A DNA stretch of 44,127 nt from Lachnospiraceae bacterium (GTDB taxonomy: Bacteria; Bacillota; Clostridia; Lachnospirales; Lachnospiraceae), in assembly GCA_024682555.1 (NCBI GenBank), contig JAIKZD010000082.1:1-44127 (forward strand), in the 5' to 3' direction. Every line of letters begins with the position of its first letter. Position 1 is the first letter of the stretch. A program made the position numbers and the translations under genes. The notes under the pieces were generated by a model, which saw only the letters and a list, made by a program, of their open reading frames with translations, was not told the DNA's origin and made no database searches. This document shows, one piece after another, positions 1-14,029 of the stretch.

Positions 1-765
1 AAAGCTTACTTCAGAATCCCCGACCTTTATAGACCGGGATGATCTTTCCTGTACGGAATCCTTTATATCCTTCTTATCTATCGCATACTTTTTGATCTCA
101 CGCCCGGTGGTGTCCTTAAAATAGACATTATCCTTACCTTCGTTCTTAAAATACGGAAGCTCATCTATTCTGTAAGACTTCTTTGTGATATCGATCTTTT
201 CTCCGGCATCTCTCATGTCCGCATCCATGTATCCGCAGTAAAATATCGCCCCGCGGTAATCTTCGGGACAGGTCAGACTGAGCGTAACGCTGTGTATCTG
301 ATCCTTTTCCACCTTCATTTCCGAGCTGTATGACACATCAAACTCCTCAGCACCGGCAGATTCCAGGCAGATTCCCGTATCCCGGTCAAAGGCACTGAAC
401 CAGGCGATAAGGCTGTACTCATCATCTATGCCTGATGTATCCACAAAAAAAGTGCCCTTTATCGTTCTGTAGCCGGGTTTTGACGCATCTCCTTCTTCTA
501 TACTGAATTCAACAGGAAAATCCACGTCTTTTACATACTCATCCGTTTCGATATCAACTACGGCCGATCTCATGACAAATGCGGTCTCCGTGCTTTCGGT
601 AAGGTCGAAATCATCAAAAAAGGATTTGTCTTCAGGTTCAAATGAAGCAGCAAGCACCCTGTTTACGGGAAACACATCCTTTACAAACGGAGTACCTGAC
701 CCTGAAACACACATTGCCAAAGCAAGCGCCAATGATATGGTTACTTTTAAGAGCCTGTTCTTCAT
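1..765 (-). CDS. Secreted protein of unknown function, 3' part beyond the window edge
   Basis: The reading frame is open from an ATG at 765 to the window edge, giving 255 codons without a stop. The start is fixed by a GGAGG-type Shine-Dalgarno just upstream (about 771-778). Residues 1-40 look like a Sec signal peptide: MKNR, then a long Leu/Ala/Val stretch, with a likely cleavage site after the VLAA segment. The mature part is acidic and beta-rich. A segment with FDRxTG, LTCPExYxG and IDExPxF closely parallels the C-terminal extracellular domain of the zinc-ribbon protein at 5888-7495, so I infer that the two are paralogous extracellular domains. It is the last visible gene of a minus-strand run of envelope proteins. 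I do not recognise a named family. Confidence 0.75.
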   Translation of the reverse strand, partial: MKNRLLKVTISLALALAMCVSGSGTPFVKDVFPVNRVLAASFEPEDKSFFDDFDLTESTETAFVMRSAVVDIETDEYVKDVDFPVEFSIEEGDASKPGYRTIKGTFFVDTSGIDDEYSLIAWFSAFDRDTGICLESAGAEEFDVSYSSEMKVEKDQIHSVTLSLTCPEDYRGAIFYCGYMDADMRDAGEKIDITKKSYRIDELPYFKNEGKDNVYFKDTTGREIKKYAIDKKDIKDSVQERSSRSIKVGDSEVSF

Positions 766-840
766 TGCTTCCTTCCTCCCTTTCCGCATTATCTGTAACA
801 TTATCCGTCATGCTTCTTGCTGTCCCGGATGAATGCCGTA

Positions 841-5887: not shown

Positions 5888-7495
5888 TTATTTGTCGCTT
5901 TCGGTGAAATACAGATACTCATGTCCGTTTGTATCAAAGCAGGGCTGTTCATCGATCCTGAGGAGTCTTCCCCGGGACTTAGTATCTGCGATCTCCTTAT
6001 CCAACTCCACACTATTATATCCTATCTGGAATACCGTCCCGTCATACCACTCCGGACAGGTAACTATAGTTGTAGTGTAGCCGTAGCGGTCATCGGAATC
6101 GCTTTCAAATTCTGTTTTTACGTCAAAGTCTTTACCGGCTCCACCGCCTGATATGTGTACGAATCCTTCATCATCCGTATCCACACTATCATCAAATTCA
6201 AGCCAGGTCCCTGTATATCTGTCAAAAACGGTATACCAGAAATACGGATTTGCGCTTTCATCAAACACGTCCAGATCAAAGCGGCATTCAAAGATAACCT
6301 CCTTGAATCCATCCTTTACGCCATCGCGGTTCTCTCTGGTCTCTATATTGGCCTTCAGACTGATCTCTTCCGTATCTTCATCCATTGAAACAAGCATTGT
6401 CTTAAAGGTAAAATCACCCTGAGGGGTTACCTTAAGACCTGCAGATGAGAAATAGTCGGACCGTTTCTTAGCCCAGGGATCATCGGCCTTATCTGTGTCA
6501 TTCGTATCGGTGTCCGTCTTTGCATCAGCATTGGTATCAGGGTCAGCATCAGCATTGACATCGGCATCAGCTTCCGTATCTATATCATCTTTAATTCCGT
6601 CAAGGATATACTGGTCGGGGTTTTCCGCTGTCTCTCCCGTCTTGCCCGTTTCATCGGTCTTTCCGGTTCCCTCGGTCTTTCCGGATCCTTCCGTCTTTCC
6701 GGTTTCGTCCTTAATATCGGTTTCCGTTACCGCCTGGTCAGTAACATCAGCATCGGTATCTTTATCATGTTTGAGAAATCCCGGCTTTACAAAGCCGAGT
6801 ATAAGAAACAGTATAAGAAGAACAGCAACTGCAAAAATGATAAGACCCTTTCCGCCTTTCTTTCCTCCCTCGCTTTCCCTTATACGCTTTTCATTGGCGA
6901 TCTGCATTGCCATCTGTGAGGTGGCATTGCCCGGACGGTTCTGGGAAGGACCGGTAAAACTGTCTACCCTCTGTCTCCTGGCATTCGGCTGCTGCATATT
7001 CGGCTGTGCCCCGGTCTGCTGCCCGTACTGAGGCGAGCCCGCCTGCCTGTTATTCCCGAAGGCCCCGGTCTGCTGGCCATGCTGAGCTGCGCCCGCCGGC
7101 GGTGCATGGCGGACACTCATGGTCTTATTAAGGGGATCATCATCAAATGTTGGGGTAAGAGGTATCACATTTCCGGCCTGAGATCCCGCATTTGCATTTC
7201 CCGAAGAAGCCGCAGGCTTAGCATGGCGGACACTCATTGTCTTATCAAGCTGGTCTGCATCGGGAAGACTACGCAACGGATCTGATGCCGCACCGGCCCC
7301 CATTCCCATAGCTGCACCGACTCCTGTGGAAACTCCAATCCCTGCATTTCCGCCCACATCTGCATTATTCACGGGACCATCAATGGCCGGCCCGGGCGCA
7401 GGGGGAACATCCGCCTGACAAGCCGGGCATACAGTCACTCCCGGAGGTACTATCGTTCCGCAGTATTCACATATTCTCTGACCATTTACAGACAT
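5888..7495 (-). CDS. Zinc-ribbon single-pass membrane protein with two KTMSVRH motifs, candidate kinase substrate
   Basis: 535 residues. Residues 9-26 hold a zinc ribbon (CEYC...CPAC). Residues 30-215 are disordered and rich in Gly, Ala, Gln and Asn, with two near-identical motifs, LDKTMSVRHA (residues 83-92) and LNKTMSVRHA (122-131), each preceded by acidic residues. Residues about 217-236 form one transmembrane helix. Then come an Asp/Thr-rich spacer (about 240-345) and a C-terminal extracellular domain with FDRYTGTWLEF, TCPEWYDG and IDEQPCF, which is shared with the secreted protein at 1-765. The topology would put the Thr motifs in the cytosol next to the kinase encoded immediately upstream, and the sensory or binding domain outside. 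That makes it a good candidate phospho-substrate or receptor; this role is inferred, not shown. Confidence 0.82.
   Translation of the reverse strand: MSVNGQRICEYCGTIVPPGVTVCPACQADVPPAPGPAIDGPVNNADVGGNAGIGVSTGVGAAMGMGAGAASDPLRSLPDADQLDKTMSVRHAKPAASSGNANAGSQAGNVIPLTPTFDDDPLNKTMSVRHAPPAGAAQHGQQTGAFGNNRQAGSPQYGQQTGAQPNMQQPNARRQRVDSFTGPSQNRPGNATSQMAMQIANEKRIRESEGGKKGGKGLIIFAVAVLLILFLILGFVKPGFLKHDKDTDADVTDQAVTETDIKDETGKTEGSGKTEGTGKTDETGKTGETAENPDQYILDGIKDDIDTEADADVNADADPDTNADAKTDTDTNDTDKADDPWAKKRSDYFSSAGLKVTPQGDFTFKTMLVSMDEDTEEISLKANIETRENRDGVKDGFKEVIFECRFDLDVFDESANPYFWYTVFDRYTGTWLEFDDSVDTDDEGFVHISGGGAGKDFDVKTEFESDSDDRYGYTTTIVTCPEWYDGTVFQIGYNSVELDKEIADTKSRGRLLRIDEQPCFDTNGHEYLYFTESDK
7103..7249. repeat. 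Two near-identical 29-bp direct repeats inside the 5888-7495 gene
   Basis: Copies at 7103-7131 and 7221-7249 share GCATGGCGGACACTCAT and then differ at only two positions. They encode the duplicated KTMSVRHA motif. The flanking codons differ, so the conservation is confined to the motif. Confidence 0.85.
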
Positions 7496-7807: not shown

Positions 7808-9094
7808 TCACAAAAATCTTATAAGCAGATAGATCACGGCACAAAGGACGGCAGCGGCAGATCCGATGATTATCATACGTCCCTTATTCCGAACGCCGGC
7901 ATTCTCCGTCCCCATCTCCGCCATCATGTTCCTCTTCTCTGTCTTTTCTTTATTCTGCTCGGCCAGTCTCCTCTTTATCCTGTCGGCCGCATCGGAGTTT
8001 CCGGCAGGGACGAGATTATCCCTGTTTACCGTAAATTCCGGACTGTTTTCCGAAAAAGAACCCGTAAAAGATCCTGTGAAAGACCCTGTAAAGGTTCCGG
8101 TAAGTCCCGGGGATACAGGAGCGCCATCGCCGTTACCCGGCATACTCTCCTTCTTATCCTCCATTCCATATGTCCCGTTTAATACCCTCTTAAGATCTTC
8201 GTTTAATTCCTTTGCACTCTGATATCTGCGGGCCGGATCATAGGCACAGGCCTTCAGGATTATGGCAGCCATGTTTTCGGACGCGTTGCAGGGTGCGGGA
8301 AGGGGTTCTCCCGACAGTCTTCTTTTCAGAGCCTCAACCCTTGCGTTCGGACTTGCGTTGGTCTCCGGAGTAAGAAAAGGAAGCATCCTGTTATTTAAGA
8401 ACCTGTACAGCACAAGTCCCAGTGAATATATATCCACCGTGGCATTATACTCATCACCCTTATCTATCTCCGGGGCCATATAATTGTAGGTGCCCTTCTG
8501 GGACATGGCCCCTGCCAGATTCTCCAGTTTTTTTGCGATCCCGAAATCTCCGAGCTTATAATCACCGAACTCGTTTACGAAGATGTTCTCAGGCTTTATG
8601 TCCCTGTGTATGACCTTTTTAAGCGCACATATCTCCAGAGCCTTTGAAATATCAAGTCCCAGCTGTATGACTTCTTCTTCCGGCATGTCTCTGTCACCCA
8701 GCCAGTTATTCAAAGGCGCAAGCAGCTCCATACGGATAAAGATGGTGTATCCGGGCTTTTCCGTATGCTCAACCACCTGATAATCCTCTACGCTGACTAT
8801 ATTCTGGACACCCTTAAAGGATTCCATCAGCCTGATCTCATTTACAAAATCCATGACTATGCCGTTTAAATAGGATTTTGTATCCGAAAGAGTCATCCCG
8901 TCTGCTATAAGGGAATCGATCTCGGTATCATTTTCGGGGATCCTGATAACCTTGATGGCGCTCTTGGATTCCATGGTATAGTCCGAACGGACGGCTTCAT
9001 ACACGGCGCCGTAGGCACCCTTTCCAAGCAGCTTTATAAGACTCCATTCGGGCCAGAAGTCATACATGAGTTCCTCAGTTGTTTTTTCGGCCAT
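7808..9094 (-). CDS. Ser/Thr protein kinase, tail-anchored, with FTGS repeats
   Basis: 428 residues. The Hanks-type kinase domain spans about residues 15-308, with a glycine-rich loop GKGAYGAVYEAV (24-35), ATP-binding Lys48, catalytic loop HRDIKPEN (Asp165, Asn170), DFG (Asp183) and an activation segment ending GTYNYMAPE. After it comes a linker with a tandem TGTFTGSFTGSFTGSFSE repeat (about 332-349), a charged helix (371-392), and a single C-terminal transmembrane helix (406-427) that ends the protein. There are no PASTA or other outside domains, so it cannot sense outside ligands by itself. Its ATG follows 15 nt after the preceding gene in an operon with a PP2C phosphatase and an FHA transporter. 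All catalytic residues are present, so it should be active. Confidence 0.93.
   Translation of the reverse strand: MAEKTTEELMYDFWPEWSLIKLLGKGAYGAVYEAVRSDYTMESKSAIKVIRIPENDTEIDSLIADGMTLSDTKSYLNGIVMDFVNEIRLMESFKGVQNIVSVEDYQVVEHTEKPGYTIFIRMELLAPLNNWLGDRDMPEEEVIQLGLDISKALEICALKKVIHRDIKPENIFVNEFGDYKLGDFGIAKKLENLAGAMSQKGTYNYMAPEIDKGDEYNATVDIYSLGLVLYRFLNNRMLPFLTPETNASPNARVEALKRRLSGEPLPAPCNASENMAAIILKACAYDPARRYQSAKELNEDLKRVLNGTYGMEDKKESMPGNGDGAPVSPGLTGTFTGSFTGSFTGSFSENSPEFTVNRDNLVPAGNSDAADRIKRRLAEQNKEKTEKRNMMAEMGTENAGVRNKGRMIIIGSAAAVLCAVIYLLIRFL
8042..8102. repeat. 12-nt tandem repeats encoding FTGS units in the kinase linker
   Basis: On the plus strand the run reads as variants of GTAAAAGATCCT, GTGAAAGACCCT and GTAAAGGTTCCG in phase with codons. 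It encodes three to four (F/T)TGS units. Such arrays can change length by slippage. Confidence 0.65.
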
Positions 9095-9109
9095 AACATC
9101 AATCCTTTC

Positions 9110-10759
9110 CTACCATGTCATCGGCTTGTTCCATTGCCAGTCAACTATATCCTTCTCTGTCCATTCATATTCAAGGACATTGAACATCCTGCATTCCTTA
9201 GTTACAGCATCCATAACGCCGTATACCAGATAAAGCTTTTCTCCGTCCTTTGTTCCAGACGGGAATTTGCCCTCGGCTTTTGCAGAGGCAAGATTTAAAT
9301 GCTTATTGAAATCATCCTCATTTTCTCCAAAGGTATCAACAGACCCTTTCCCGGTAACGGAGGTAAGAAAACTCTTTGGTGTCACCGTGATGCCACCGTG
9401 CTTTGCAGAGCCTTTTTCAAGATCCACATCTGCTATGGCAAGACTGCAGATTACTCCTGCGGGAAGCCCGTCAGTTTCAGATTCTCTGAATATCCTCAAT
9501 TCTTCATAATAGGATTCGCCGCCATAATAGCTTGTCTTAAATCCCGGATCCGGTATCAGAAACTGCAGAGTCTCTTCTTTTCCCGTGGGGCTATTATCTT
9601 TTGAGACGGTAAAGGTATAGACCATATCCTGCCCGTCCGAACCTCTTCTGCTTTCCCGTATCCTGACGCCGTCTTTTTCATCCTCTGTCTTTTCGGAATT
9701 GATATATCTCACATCCTTAAGATTCCATATGCCGGGATACTCATGCCTGATCCACTCGGGATCGTTTTCCTCATGGGTCTCCTCCGCGGCTTCTGTCTCT
9801 TTTCGGGGCGCATCGGCTTTGTCAAACACCCATGAATATTCCCAGACCTTTCTCATCCTTATATCCTCAGATTCTCCGGCAATTATATCAAACACGAGCC
9901 AGATCTTTGCGCCCTCGGAAACCTTCTGCGGCATCTGCGCATAAGGCCTGTAATAGCAGCTCTCAAGGCCGTTATCATCGGTATCGCCTCCGTCTCTTGT
10001 CCTGTTGTCGATACCGATGTGTCTGGCTTCTGACCTTGGATATATACTCTCGTTAACGGACTTCTTCAGATATGTATAGACGGCGATATCCTGCCCGAAT
10101 GGGTCTGTATTGTCGGCATCATCCTTTTTTATATCTGCAAGATACAGGGCTCCGTGAACGTCACCTATACGCTTTTTTGTCCCTTTATTTATATAGCTTA
10201 TCTTTATATCCGGCTGTATGTCTTCACCCGGGGCATATCTGTCCGATAATCCCTGACATCTGATCAAATAATCCGTGTGCTTTTTACCTTGTTCAAAGGT
10301 GACCGATACTTCCTTTTCGTCTTTTCCACCGGTGTTTATATTAACATTGGTACCCTTTCCTCCCGCGTTCAGGGTAAAGGAGATGTCCTTCCCCTCCGTG
10401 TTTACGGTGACAGGATCCCCGGGCTTCTGATCCTTATCCCCGATGAGCACGGGCTCAAACATGATCTCGTCCGTTTTCTCCCAATGACCGGGATTTAATG
10501 CATTTAAGGATAACACTTTGTTTTTGTCATCATATGTGGCTCCCGGTTCCTTTTCGTTTATCTCGGACGGAGCTTCAGTTCCACCCGTGACCTGATATAT
10601 CTTTGAGCTGTCCGCCCTTCCCGCAGAGGATCGGGATCTGCCTGACAGATTATCAATAACTCCGTAGATAAAATCAAAACCGCAGAAGAAACAGAATACA
10701 GAAACAATAACAAGGAGCAGCATCAATTTTTTTCCGTGTGTAATCCTTCTTTGCATCAT
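9110..10759 (-). CDS. Membrane-anchored protein with duplicated extracellular region
   Basis: 549 residues. The N-terminus is basic (MMQRRITHGKK) and is followed by one hydrophobic segment (LMLLLVIVSVFCFFCGFDFIY as a signal anchor, residues about 13-33). The rest is predicted outside the cell. Two segments end in the same pattern: AKIWLVFDIIAGESEDIRM...WEYSW near the middle, and EKLYLVYGVMDAVTKECRM...LEYEW near the C-terminus. I read this as an internal duplication of a beta-rich domain. The gene starts 2 nt after the FHA-ABC stop and ends 15 nt before the kinase start, so it is firmly inside the phospho-signalling operon. It may be an extracellular partner or sensor for the transporter. No named family is recognised. 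Confidence 0.8.
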   Translation of the reverse strand: MMQRRITHGKKLMLLLVIVSVFCFFCGFDFIYGVIDNLSGRSRSSAGRADSSKIYQVTGGTEAPSEINEKEPGATYDDKNKVLSLNALNPGHWEKTDEIMFEPVLIGDKDQKPGDPVTVNTEGKDISFTLNAGGKGTNVNINTGGKDEKEVSVTFEQGKKHTDYLIRCQGLSDRYAPGEDIQPDIKISYINKGTKKRIGDVHGALYLADIKKDDADNTDPFGQDIAVYTYLKKSVNESIYPRSEARHIGIDNRTRDGGDTDDNGLESCYYRPYAQMPQKVSEGAKIWLVFDIIAGESEDIRMRKVWEYSWVFDKADAPRKETEAAEETHEENDPEWIRHEYPGIWNLKDVRYINSEKTEDEKDGVRIRESRRGSDGQDMVYTFTVSKDNSPTGKEETLQFLIPDPGFKTSYYGGESYYEELRIFRESETDGLPAGVICSLAIADVDLEKGSAKHGGITVTPKSFLTSVTGKGSVDTFGENEDDFNKHLNLASAKAEGKFPSGTKDGEKLYLVYGVMDAVTKECRMFNVLEYEWTEKDIVDWQWNKPMTW

Positions 10760-10761
10760 CT

Positions 10762-13167
10762 TTATCCGTTTTCCTTTCCCACGGACTGAAGCACCACTCT
10801 TGCGATCACCAGATATCCGATGACGAACAGAAGCAGTATCCCCCAGTCGGTGAAAAGATGTTTTGAAACAAATTCAAAACAGTCCTCAGGATTATGGCTT
10901 ACATACTGGGCTATAAACGGATCCAGCTGCTGAAGCGAAAGCTCGAGGCCGTTTAAATTGGCGGTTGTTCCGTATGCCTCCATGCTCCACCGGCAGTTTG
11001 TGATATAGGAAATGATCTCGGTGGCACCTGCAAGGGAGAACATCATTCCTGAGAAAAGTATCTGCGGCATCAGAAGGATCGGCGCCACGGTCATCGCCCT
11101 GTCCGCATTGGTGAAGAGGGATGATACAAACAGACCCATGGCCGAGGCGGATATCGCCGTAAGGAAGGTTGTCAGAAAGATCTCTACAAACGGCGAAGTG
11201 AACACCCCTCCTTTTGGAAGTCCCACGGTTAAAGAAAAGACCCCTACTATCATGGCACTCTGGATGAGACACATAAGTCCCAGGACCACAACCTTTGAGA
11301 TGATATAATTGGTCAGAGACAGGCCGGTCATATACTCACGTCTCAGGATATTTCTTTCCTTGCAGACCTCCTGTATCGCATTCAGCATTCCTACCCAGAA
11401 AGCACAGCAGGACAGGGAAAACAAGAGGCTCTTTGTCATTTCGTACTGATCGTACTGCTTGCCGTCCGCAACGAGGGATATGAGAATGGCAAGAAGAGGT
11501 GCCTGCAGCATTAACAGGATCAGCCTCTGTCTGTCGTTTACCACAAGCTTTAAATATCTCTGACATAACACGGGCAGCTGCCTTGCCTTCTTTTCCCTCT
11601 TTGTCGAAACCACTGCCGCCTGCTCCGTTCTGGTCTTTCCCTGAGGCGCAGCGGCCAGGGTCGCATCATATTTCTGCCTTATCTCCTTTGCATGATCCGT
11701 TATCATGCCGTATACATCGACGACATCCGATACTCCGAAGAAATCCAGGGCCTCGTCATGGGGTCCGAAGAAGCAGAGATTTCCGCCTTTGCCCATGAAC
11801 ACTATCTTGTCGCACATCTTAAGCTGCAGTGTGCTGTGAGTTACCAAAATTACCGTCTTTCCGCCGTCAGCCATTTCACGAAGCGAGGTCATAAGGCTTC
11901 TCTCCGTTCCCGGATCGAGTCCGGATGCGGGCTCATCGAGGAATAAAAGGTTGGGGTCGGATAAAAGTTCGACCGCTATGCTGGCTCTCTTTTTCTGCCC
12001 GCCGCTCAAAGCCTTTATAAAGCTGTTCTTTTTTTCCGTAAGTTCCACGAGCCTTATTGCCCTGTCTATGGCAGCCTCGCGCTCCTTTTGGGAGGTGTCG
12101 GGAGGAAGCCTTAGCTTCGAGGTATATAAGAGCATATCGTAAAGCGTCAGATTATCATATACGATATCCGACTGAGGCACATATCCTATCAGCTTCTTAA
12201 GGGAATCAAAGTTCTGATAAAGCTCGGCACCGTTTATATAAACATGGCCTGCCGCGGGATGAAGATATCCGCTCATGGCATTTAAGATGGTGGATTTTCC
12301 GGCGCCGGAGCCTCCGATTATGGCTATAAGCTCACCGGGCTTAATATTCAGGCTTACATTGTTGCAGGTGACAAAAGATTTCTTTCCTTTGCCCCGCCTT
12401 ATGACAACGTTCTCCGCATCCACGGAAATACCGCCGCCGTAGAAGCAGTAGGAGATCATCTGCGAGGTAAAGATAAGCTTCGTGTTGGTGATCATTATCA
12501 CGTCTTTTTCGTGCAGGACCTGCTTTCCCGTTATCCTCCGGTTATTAACGATCACACCGTTTGTGCTGTTATTGTCTTCTATGAAGTAATGGCCCCCCGC
12601 AGATACTATCCTTGCATGAAGTTTTGACACGCTTATATGGGGTAAAACAATGCTGCAGCCGGGATCTCTTCCTAAGGTGATCTGATTCTGTCCCTGCAGC
12701 ATGACCGTATTCCATCTGCTTCTGGAATCCGCTGCCGCAAATACGAAAAGAACACCCTCCGCAATGGTTTCAACACCATCATCTATCCTGATAAAATCAC
12801 CTTCACACAAAGATCTCCGGACTATGGCAGCGTTATTGTAAATGAGTCCGTTGGTACTTGGAGAGGATCCGTAAAATTCCCTGTCCTCCATCGACCACTG
12901 CCCGTTCACATAGCTGAATCGTCCGTGTTCGGAAGAAACAAGAGGAGATGTGAGAACGATATCGTTTCCCGGAGCACGGCCGAAACTGATCACGGTTTTT
13001 CCGAAATCAAAAAGCCTTATATTGACCGGAGCATTGTTTCCGTCAAAGATCGTGACTATGAGATCGGAATTTCCCGAACCGGACCCGTTCCCGTTTCCCA
13101 TGACACCCTGAAAATTCCCGGGCCTGTTTCCCGAATGCAGAATGTTCGTTGTCTGATCAATATCCAT
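10762..13167 (-). CDS. Double-FHA ABC transporter (Rv1747-like architecture)
   Basis: 801 residues. FHA domain 1 covers about residues 37-140, with SFGRAPGNDIVL, SSEH and STNG. FHA domain 2 covers about 150-235, with TLGRDPGCSIVL, SKLHAR and NSTNG. Both keep the Arg, Ser, His and Asn residues used to bind phospho-threonine. The ABC ATPase follows (about 250-480): Walker A GGSGAGKS at 285-292, signature LSGGQKKR from 387, Walker B LLFLDE at 407-412, and H-loop VTHST. The C-terminal part (about 540-795) is an ABC-2-type six-helix membrane domain. The order FHA-FHA-ATPase-permease in one chain matches mycobacterial Rv1747, whose FHA domains bind kinase PknF. Here the gene is 2 nt from a PP2C phosphatase and two genes from a kinase. 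The exported substrate is unknown. Confidence 0.93.
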   Translation of the reverse strand: MDIDQTTNILHSGNRPGNFQGVMGNGNGSGSGNSDLIVTIFDGNNAPVNIRLFDFGKTVISFGRAPGNDIVLTSPLVSSEHGRFSYVNGQWSMEDREFYGSSPSTNGLIYNNAAIVRRSLCEGDFIRIDDGVETIAEGVLFVFAAADSRSRWNTVMLQGQNQITLGRDPGCSIVLPHISVSKLHARIVSAGGHYFIEDNNSTNGVIVNNRRITGKQVLHEKDVIMITNTKLIFTSQMISYCFYGGGISVDAENVVIRRGKGKKSFVTCNNVSLNIKPGELIAIIGGSGAGKSTILNAMSGYLHPAAGHVYINGAELYQNFDSLKKLIGYVPQSDIVYDNLTLYDMLLYTSKLRLPPDTSQKEREAAIDRAIRLVELTEKKNSFIKALSGGQKKRASIAVELLSDPNLLFLDEPASGLDPGTERSLMTSLREMADGGKTVILVTHSTLQLKMCDKIVFMGKGGNLCFFGPHDEALDFFGVSDVVDVYGMITDHAKEIRQKYDATLAAAPQGKTRTEQAAVVSTKREKKARQLPVLCQRYLKLVVNDRQRLILLMLQAPLLAILISLVADGKQYDQYEMTKSLLFSLSCCAFWVGMLNAIQEVCKERNILRREYMTGLSLTNYIISKVVVLGLMCLIQSAMIVGVFSLTVGLPKGGVFTSPFVEIFLTTFLTAISASAMGLFVSSLFTNADRAMTVAPILLMPQILFSGMMFSLAGATEIISYITNCRWSMEAYGTTANLNGLELSLQQLDPFIAQYVSHNPEDCFEFVSKHLFTDWGILLLFVIGYLVIARVVLQSVGKENG

Positions 13168-13169
13168 GT

Positions 13170-13961
13170 CTACCTCCTCTGTCTTCCGAAAAGATCAAAA
13201 AATCCGGATCTTTTCTTTTTAACCCTGCAAAGGATTATCGTTATATTGTCCTTTCCTCCGTTTTCGATGGCTTCCCTCAAAAGCTTCGGGACAGCATCCC
13301 AAATGGAATATGCCGACAATACCCTTGCTATCTCATCTTCCTGAACCATATCCGTCAATCCGTCCGAACAGATCAGATACACATCTCCGTCCCAGTATTC
13401 GCCTGTTGCCACATAGGGATCTATCTGCATCTCCTCCGGCGGTATCCCCAGATTCTGTGAAAGCGGCGGCTTCCCGCCGATCTTATAGGGTGCCACGTGA
13501 TCTATTGAGATCTGTTTAAGCTCCCCCGAAACAAACCTGAATATCCTGCTGTCTCCGATGTTGCAAAGAGATATGCCGTCCTTCGAGAAATATAGCATTG
13601 CTCCCGTGGTACCCATGGATTCTATGTTATTGTCCGCGGCATACCTGTATATCCTCTCATTTGCACGGGTACACAGATCAAGCAGCAGGTCAACGGGAGC
13701 CGTCCCATCTGCCCTTACAGTCCGTGCGGCGCATTCGGATGCAATAAGCGAAGCCATCTCGCCGCATTCCTCACCGCCCATTCCGTCAAAGACACCAAGG
13801 AGCAGATCTTTGCCTGCGTCAGATTCACCCCTGAGCGGCTCTCCCATGCTGCTCTCATGGTTTTTCAGGTAAACCCCGTCCGCTATGAAATTGTCCTGGT
13901 TGATCTTTCTGATCTTTCCTATATCACAGATCAGACAGTACGACACCTCATACCGTGCCAT
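13170..13961 (-). CDS. PP2C-family Ser/Thr phosphatase
   Basis: 263 residues, a single soluble PP2C domain of normal bacterial length. The family motifs are complete: KINQDN (residues 19-24), VFDGMGG (57-63, metal-binding Asp59), NIGDSRIF, CSDGLTDM and KDNITII. It should reverse Ser/Thr phosphorylation with Mn/Mg as cofactor. It is the first gene of a four-gene operon with the FHA transporter 2 nt downstream and the kinase at the end, the usual pairing of antagonistic enzymes. The start ATG has GAGGAT upstream and a good promoter lies about 40 nt further 5'. The C-terminus is basic (KKKRSGFFDLFGRQRR), which may hold it at the membrane or at a partner. Confidence 0.93.
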   Translation of the reverse strand: MARYEVSYCLICDIGKIRKINQDNFIADGVYLKNHESSMGEPLRGESDAGKDLLLGVFDGMGGEECGEMASLIASECAARTVRADGTAPVDLLLDLCTRANERIYRYAADNNIESMGTTGAMLYFSKDGISLCNIGDSRIFRFVSGELKQISIDHVAPYKIGGKPPLSQNLGIPPEEMQIDPYVATGEYWDGDVYLICSDGLTDMVQEDEIARVLSAYSIWDAVPKLLREAIENGGKDNITIILCRVKKKRSGFFDLFGRQRR

Positions 13962-14000: not shown

Positions 14001-14029
14001 ATTGTAACATAAAAGAGATATACCGTCAT
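14001..14029 (-). promoter_or_regulatory. Extended -10 promoter of the phosphatase/transporter/kinase operon
   Basis: On the minus strand ATGACG (14024-14029), a 17-nt spacer, and TACAAT (14001-14006) preceded by TGT, an extended -10. Transcription would start near 13994, about 33 nt before the PP2C ATG. Confidence 0.7.

Follow-up and report, generated by a model that had tools for sequence, protein, structure and literature searches.

We analyzed a stretch of 44,127 nucleotides (nt) from a Lachnospiraceae bacterium (contig JAIKZD010000082.1; the whole stretch is called the window), which hosts an operon for a Ser/Thr kinase, a PP2C-type phosphatase and an ABC transporter with two FHA domains. 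Its gene content and its relatives suggest that phospho-threonine signalling switches an ABCG-type exporter in a self-contained module, in which kinase and PP2C would act through short, repeated threonine (Thr) tags; we give this reading a probability of about 0.58. The module is real and conserved, it is similar to Rv1747/PknF of Mycobacterium tuberculosis, and its added phosphatase is common in its kin. The tags and their movement between proteins look new. The window is the entire contig C48 of an assembly of 3.13 Mb in 159 contigs (95.7% complete, 5.8% contamination); loci, genomes and contigs are numbered with L, G and C. The features that matter for the argument are the following (TM, transmembrane segment; pLDDT, predicted local distance difference test):

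13170..13961, minus strand: PP2C-type Ser/Thr phosphatase, 263 residues (predicted eraser); Pfam PP2C 3.1e-11 and PP2C_2 4.9e-11, catalytic motifs
10762..13167, minus strand: half-transporter of ABCG type, 801 residues (predicted reader and exporter), with two FHA domains, a nucleotide-binding domain (NBD) and a transmembrane domain (TMD); Pfam and fold model
13132..13167, minus strand: N-terminal tail of the transporter, probably disordered, with the candidate Thr tag MDIDQTTNIL; pLDDT 30-35 over residues 1-30
12784..12990, minus strand: FHA domain 1; PF00498 6.1e-10; GR, SxxH and STNG present
12490..12681, minus strand: FHA domain 2; PF00498 3.3e-19; GR, SxxH and STNG present; nearest solved sequence Rv1747 chain 6cah, 9.7e-9
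9110..10759, minus strand: 549-residue protein, weakly repeated, near-orphan; one N-terminal TM (6-36), about 510 residues outside
7808..9094, minus strand: Ser/Thr kinase, 428 residues, tail-anchored (predicted writer); Pkinase 1.1e-39; TM at residues 404-428
5888..7495, minus strand: zinc-ribbon single-pass membrane protein, 535 residues (tag bearer, candidate sensor or anchor); TM 212-243
7226..7246, minus strand: Thr tag 1, DKTMSVR (LDKTMSVRHA); AGY-type pattern match
7109..7129, minus strand: Thr tag 2, NKTMSVR (LNKTMSVRHA); AGY-type pattern match

A kinase, a phosphatase and an FHA-fused exporter in one predicted operon

The operon consists of four minus-strand genes in the order PP2C, FHA-FHA-ABC transporter, 549-residue protein and kinase, with gaps of 2, 2 and 15 nt. 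An earlier note on this DNA had described this arrangement, and its coordinates, strand and spacing are all exact. Pfam domains and motifs likewise bear out its account of a writer, an eraser and an FHA reader joined to an exporter. The observation itself is confirmed as real, and the interpretation that came with it is partly supported.

For the catalytic proteins we relied on the well-known diagnostic motifs of kinases, PP2Cs and ABC proteins. The kinase is of the Hanks type, with G-loop, HRDIKPEN, DFG and APE, and the phosphatase carries the metal-binding and catalytic motifs of PP2C (NQDN, DGMGG, GTT, SDGL and GGKDN). Walker A and LSGGQ are present in the transporter, together with six hydrophobic segments in the TMD. 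As far as sequence can tell, the domains found, together with the catalytic motifs, speak for active PP2C, kinase and ABC proteins. The kinase has no extracellular domain, as had been claimed: the chain ends in its own TM, at residues 404-428 of 428. With this end and a score of 126.8 bits against the NCBIfam PASTA-kinase model (cut-off 450), it does not belong to the PASTA kinases. A role of the locus in anti-phage defence was considered and rejected, since the PADLOC models that match the kinase and the ATPase do so through generic catalytic domains and no defence neighbourhood was seen.

Within the transporter, Pfam recognizes FHA (3.2e-29, in two stretches), ABC_tran (5.2e-32) and ABC2_membrane (1.5e-19). 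An AlphaFold2 model built on 31 sequences (pLDDT 81.9) contains FHA1, FHA2, the NBD and a helical TMD, and drops below pLDDT 50 at residues 1-33, 507-525 and 799-801. All 50 PDB matches listed in a fold search are ABCG proteins or of ABCG type (Cdr1), with ABCG2 first (E 2.2e-24). By sequence, ABCA3 is the best match of the ATPase part (1.1e-58), ahead of ABCG2 (2.8e-37), so fold and domain order are what the ABCG label is based on. A single chain carries two FHA domains, the NBD and a six-helix TMD in that order, which is the arrangement of an FHA-ABCG half-transporter. Both FHA domains keep GR, SxxH and NG, which are described as motifs of the FHA pocket (PMC1262709; here and below, excerpts of the cited papers are the source). 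A profile search of the whole genome detected four FHA domains; this transporter accounts for two, and the genome has two further FHA loci. Solved structures that match the FHA part number 14, with 6cah (which we take to be FHA-2 of Rv1747) as the nearest and with GarA and OdhI also among them.

The neighbourhood is conserved in Lachnospiraceae and other Bacillota

The earlier note had staked its reading on a conserved neighbourhood in related genomes, and such a neighbourhood exists in Lachnospiraceae and in other Bacillota. A search of the family for the transporter at E 1e-60 returned 13 of 200 genomes, the window's own included, with no match in the same-genus genome G193. A scan over named genomes gave 521 relatives, of which we kept the best 80. 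Among 59 full-length FHA-ABC loci, which include three with transporters at 92-93% identity (L058, L061 and L064), a same-strand kinase lies within three open reading frames (ORFs) in 33, a PP2C in 16 and both in 14. In the 13 nearest loci (at least 60% identity, window included) these counts are 10, 9 and 9, and in the background, 610 ORFs that are either more than six ORFs away from FHA-ABC or in loci without it, there are 10 kinases and 4 PP2Cs. The kinase belongs to the same predicted operon as FHA-ABC, an arrangement that is kept in relatives. The claim that the transporter comes packaged with its own phosphatase holds in that the PP2C is there, and fails in that this is not special to the window's genome, with both a kinase and a PP2C within three ORFs in 9 of the 13 nearest loci.

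Near relatives frequently show the order PP2C, kinase, transporter. The nearest locus, L034 from a goat rumen Lachnospiraceae, has a kinase, a PP2C, the transporter, a 271-residue protein and a tail-anchored kinase. The window groups with L034 (support 97/92) and L046 (100/100) in the transporter tree, and its kinase is sister to the tail-anchored kinase L034_13443 (100/96) in the kinase tree.

In L021, L043, L047 and L049, FHA-ABC lies in bigger clusters that also encode a PP2C, an FHA-fused kinase and numerous separate FHA proteins. A related-looking protein of about 410-430 residues, absent from the window, follows FHA-ABC in L019 (7434-8666), L038 (12226-13500), L040 (12272-13558) and L181 (5474-6697).

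A short Thr tag repeats on the kinase tails of near relatives

A short Thr tag, D-x-T-x-[SA]-V-[RH] (SVR-type), is common to near relatives and repeats between the kinase domain and the TM. Examples are NRTTSVRKAP and DQTVSVRRAP in L019 and DRTVSVRHAP and DRTMSVRHAP in L034, and L037 has five copies. A narrow pattern, [DN]xT[VTMIA][STA][VI][RHKQ], finds 23 copies in 13 of 61 nearby kinases (shuffle mean 0.35, maximum 2 in 20 shuffles). Elsewhere in the loci it finds one copy in 67 FHA-ABC proteins, none in 33 PP2Cs, one in 51 other FHA proteins and five copies in 3 of 176 other nearby ORFs. The remaining 1048 ORFs hold four copies, one of them in L036's own kinase, which is the level of shuffled sequences (mean 1.85, maximum 4).

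We also applied two wider patterns to tails of 130 residues, a strict one ([DNE]xTxx[VI][RHKQ]) and a core one (Txx[VI][RHQK][RKHN]). With these, 12 of 14 near-clade kinases are tagged (from 11 loci, in a clade delimited from the transporter tree after the tags had been seen), with 22 strict or 20 core copies against a shuffle mean of 0.4 and a maximum of 4 in 1000. Other kinases near FHA-ABC genes have the core form in 0 of 15 and the strict form in 2 of 15. The tag is found in 1 of 23 kinases of genomes where FHA-ABC was not found (one kinase per genome, from 30 loci, L167 being without a usable tail; in some of these genomes the scoring for FHA-ABC covered five candidates each). The 14 include the L036 kinase, added by hand, whose transporter was lost to an antisense ORF in crude ORF calling. 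A filter on motifs and strand left out the tagged L040 kinase, the tagged FHA-FHA-pseudokinase of L037, the untagged L057 kinase and two opposite-strand L045 kinases without the core tag; no kinase was found in L041, L042 and L044. When the same-strand near-clade kinases are restored, 14 of 17 are tagged, and the third untagged one, L057, is another kinase type five ORFs away. In G373 (66% identity), whose tail was seen before the motif was fixed, the tag is on the kinase beside FHA-ABC and on neither of two other kinases.

The untagged pair among the 14 consists of the window, whose kinase tail matches none of the tag patterns, and L039. Each of the two loci has two tags on a separate membrane protein, which in L039 is a 357-residue TM protein just before the transporter (YLDKTVSVRRSYDTTVSVRRA), with SH3-like repeats by eye. 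Because the closest relatives of the window kinase are tagged, tag loss from it is the simplest reading of these sequences.

Thr sites also occur at transporter N-termini. After 5 of 67 homologues with almost no segment upstream of FHA1 had been dropped, [DEN][KRQM]T precedes FHA1 in 20 of 62 (shuffle mean 5.6, maximum 12 in 500), as compared with 27 of 354 control N-termini. The transporter of L041 begins with TTSVRRA, and L054 has near-identical tags on the kinase tail (YDKTVSIYED) and on the transporter N-terminus (YEKTVSCYED).

Related motifs were seen on three other kinds of protein. In L037 (12309-14354), a chain directly after FHA-ABC fuses FHA-FHA to a kinase-like (pseudokinase) domain and bears three tail tags. 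An FHA protein of L021 contains the tag-like DDMTATVRYQ. Near FHA-ABC, L023 (14861-15142), L024 (3521-3784) and L025 (16535-16804) encode proteins of 87-93 residues with an N-terminal D[KE]TVFVNY[DE]K, perhaps another form of tag bearer.

The tags of the window lie on a zinc-ribbon membrane protein

The two tags of the window are carried by the zinc-ribbon protein at 7495-5888, which lies beyond the coordinates of the earlier note and whose zinc-ribbon matches are weak and under the cut-off. It has a cytosolic tag region and an outside domain at about residues 340-535, with the sidedness taken from the positive-inside rule. Across the 3.1-Mb genome, an AGY-type DNA pattern of the tag has two matches, both in this gene, and its reversed-pattern controls have one and none. 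The TCN/GCN/ACN-type pattern gives no signal, with eight matches genome-wide versus six and nine when reversed; both patterns span only some codon and residue choices. None of the eight is a tag by context, and the three that fall in an ORF frame lie in other proteins, two of them histidine-kinase-like by eye.

Relatives of the outside domain occur in 3 other of 397 family genomes. The five other proteins that have this domain are without SVR-type tags, with one loose match (EDTDDVQ), and three of the five are lipoprotein-like by eye. Since it bears the Thr tags seen on the kinase tails of relatives, the zinc-ribbon protein seems a better coupling partner than the 549-residue protein.

At 1-801 (minus strand) the window encodes a truncated, secreted-looking protein with a domain akin to the zinc-ribbon outside domain (24% identity, E 3e-12), and other genomes of the family have similar domains in proteins that look like lipoproteins. 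The tag bearer is closely followed by a double zinc-ribbon membrane protein of 449 residues and a 215-residue membrane protein (5785-3782, minus strand).

The 549-residue protein is not a core part

The 549-residue protein has no Pfam or NCBIfam match. The earlier note had regarded it as a duplicated-domain protein. The duplication has partial support, as one stretch of 38 residues matches between the halves (29% identity, E 2e-5), and a single-sequence model (pLDDT 35.6) is too poor to settle the matter. A comparison of the first outside half with the zinc-ribbon protein's outside domain showed no relationship (E 0.39). We found one relative in 397 family genomes, with 33% identity over residues 166-549. 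This relative is lipoprotein-like by eye and lies on a contig of 8.9 kb in which, also by eye, no Hanks-type kinase or ABC ORF was seen and one ORF resembles a small-molecule kinase. None of the other FHA-ABC loci examined has a relative of the 549-residue protein, and the protein of 271 residues that holds its position in L034 is a multi-TM protein, unrelated by eye.

The same note had proposed that sensing comes from this protein. As a sensor, or as an export accessory, it would couple signals to kinase and transporter. Its position within the operon, where gaps of 2 nt and 15 nt separate its gene from those of the transporter and the kinase, its single TM and its large outside part fit such a role. 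Against it stand the lack of relatives in other loci, the sole and lipoprotein-like relative in the family with no Hanks-type kinase seen beside it, and the unrelated protein at that place in L034. We consider this role improbable; the protein may matter in this strain and is not a core part of the module.

A model of the switch

We infer a switch that comprises tag phosphorylation, FHA binding, an effect on transport and sensing by the outside domain. The substrates of the kinase would be three Thr tags: the transporter would offer one in its N-terminal tail, and the zinc-ribbon protein two on its cytosolic side. Each transporter chain has two FHA domains (four per dimer), and these would bind the phosphorylated tags and join transporter, tag bearer and kinase in a multivalent membrane assembly, by which export would be switched or placed. 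The PP2C would strip the phosphates, and the assembly would dissolve. In most near relatives the tags are on the kinase's own tail, which would let the kinase dock directly on the transporter. In the window and in L039 they are on another membrane protein, and the tagged receptor and the kinase would be two chains.

FHA domains often select the residue at position +3 from the phospho-threonine (pT+3). The tag, with Val or Ile at +3, fits this rule and may be an FHA ligand. A site of Rv2623 that is proposed to bind the FHA-I domain of Rv1747 reads pTRVV, with Val at +3 (PMC5549992). This site, like the PknG-GarA and PknF/PstP cases described below, favours the model by analogy.

Alternative explanations

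The tags might instead be recognition or autophosphorylation sites that tune the kinase or serve another reader, with the FHA domains of the transporter binding something else, for example the activation loop. Kinases of genomes without FHA-ABC do bear other repeated tail Thr motifs (GETVLLS, EEKTVGM, QETVFAG and TVGGW, in L160, L152, L153 and L164), as though every kinase family used a motif of its own. Tagged tails are therefore general and no proof of docking on FHA-ABC, and the window's genome has two further FHA loci. This explanation has to account for an SVR-type tag that tracks the FHA-ABC clade (12 of 14 versus 1 of 23) and recurs both on non-kinase proteins, in the window and in L039, and at transporter N-termini, as TTSVRR in L041 and again in L054. 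We regard it as unlikely. A chance or loose neighbourhood, in which the operon is shared and the pathway is not, would agree with the patchy distribution (13 of 200 family genomes, and no match in G193 of the same genus). It is at odds with the count of 33 among 59 loci that have a same-strand kinase no more than three ORFs away, as against 10 in 610 background ORFs, and with the shared tags, and appears highly improbable.

Several further points weigh against the proposed switch. The motif was read off the same loci in which it was later counted, and these loci are mutually related. When the motif was fixed beforehand, 391 genomes of the class and 160 further genomes of the family yielded no usable new near-clade locus. 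The single match, G254, is the same contig as L050; it has 58% identity over residues 191-798, lacks the transporter N-terminus and is untagged in all of its four ORFs. The L048 kinase, just outside the near clade, is untagged, and nine distant FHA-ABC loci (L198-L206) are without the SVR-type tag, with other pattern matches there falling in unrelated proteins. The N-terminal tag of the transporter is weaker than the kinase tags, and that of the window fits neither tag pattern. Finally, the zinc-ribbon gene lies 312 nt downstream of the kinase and need not be co-transcribed with it.

Comparison with known systems

The resemblance to Rv1747/PknF that the earlier note had pointed out is borne out: both systems have an FHA-FHA-NBD-TMD chain and a kinase in its operon, and the nearest solved FHA domain is an Rv1747 chain. 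PstP, which also acts on Rv1747, is a PP2C phosphatase. Rv1747 is described as a single-chain half-transporter of this order (PMC9312465) that shares an operon with its Ser/Thr kinase (PMC3908365). Condensation of its residues 1-310 is reported to be promoted by PknF phosphorylation and reversed by PstP, and a disordered linker separates its FHA domains (PMC9312465). In the window, by contrast, the FHA domains are close, the low-confidence part is the N-terminal tail, and no stretch under pLDDT 50, as a phospho-acceptor linker would form, lies between FHA1 and FHA2. Because this disordered linker is absent, we consider the module Rv1747-like in its working and yet do not class it as an Rv1747 ortholog. 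The window also differs from Rv1747/PknF in that its operon holds a phosphatase gene and in that its Thr tags are on a separate membrane protein (on the kinase tail in relatives).

The PpkA-PppA-Fha1 system acts in type VI secretion. Its FHA protein is separate and its machine is of type VI, whereas the FHA domains of the window are parts of the transporter. The likeness lies in a kinase, a PP2C and an FHA protein tied to secretion (PMC6213207). In Pfam and NCBIfam scans of nine window proteins we found no type VI family. PknG-GarA/OdhI has, as far as we know, neither an ABC protein nor a repeated tag family, and its FHA protein, unlike that of the window, is a soluble metabolic regulator and not a transporter. 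Here the likeness is that PknG autophosphorylates at sites outside the catalytic core, that these sites recruit GarA through its FHA domain, and that a substrate peptide with ETTSVF resembles the tag (PMC8546545). The pairing of a kinase with a PP2C recalls PrkC/PrpC of Bacillota, and the window's genome has such a pair on C55 (PASTA repeats by eye); the operon kinase differs in being without an outside part and in being accompanied by FHA-ABC.

Surroundings of the operon

The ORFs upstream of the operon are presumably the translation genes thrS, infC and rplT, named by eye. One promoter-like site precedes the PP2C:

14001..14029, minus strand: promoter-like site with TG before the second hexamer; consensus scan, 40 nt upstream of the PP2C start

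This site is weak, as the region holds 12 such sites and shuffles predict 10.8. An Rfam scan of the window gave no match. Elsewhere in the same genome, contig G000:C13 has a second phospho-signalling region at about 10000-35000 (L131 and L132), with three kinases identified by protein-family search. They stand amid proteins that look von Willebrand-like, PP2C-like and small WXG-like by eye.

Implications

The literature that we searched, whose coverage mostly excluded subscription papers, contained no FHA-ABC/kinase/PP2C module in Bacillota and no such tag system, and in it FHA-fused exporters are known mainly from one mycobacterial case. Tentatively, the Thr tag could be a portable phospho-address, by which any tagged membrane receptor would be delivered to the FHA-ABCG exporter and would control it. 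If so, the sensor would be exchangeable by moving the tag, and a kinase stripped of it would write on the tag in trans. Among most near relatives its carrier would be the kinase tail; in the window and in L039 it would be the zinc-ribbon receptor and the SH3-like-repeat receptor, respectively. In these Bacillota a likely FHA ligand is readable from sequence, as a short repeated tag that tracks the transporter and is able to change its carrier. Such a tag would allow membrane proteins that are coupled to FHA-fused exporters to be predicted.

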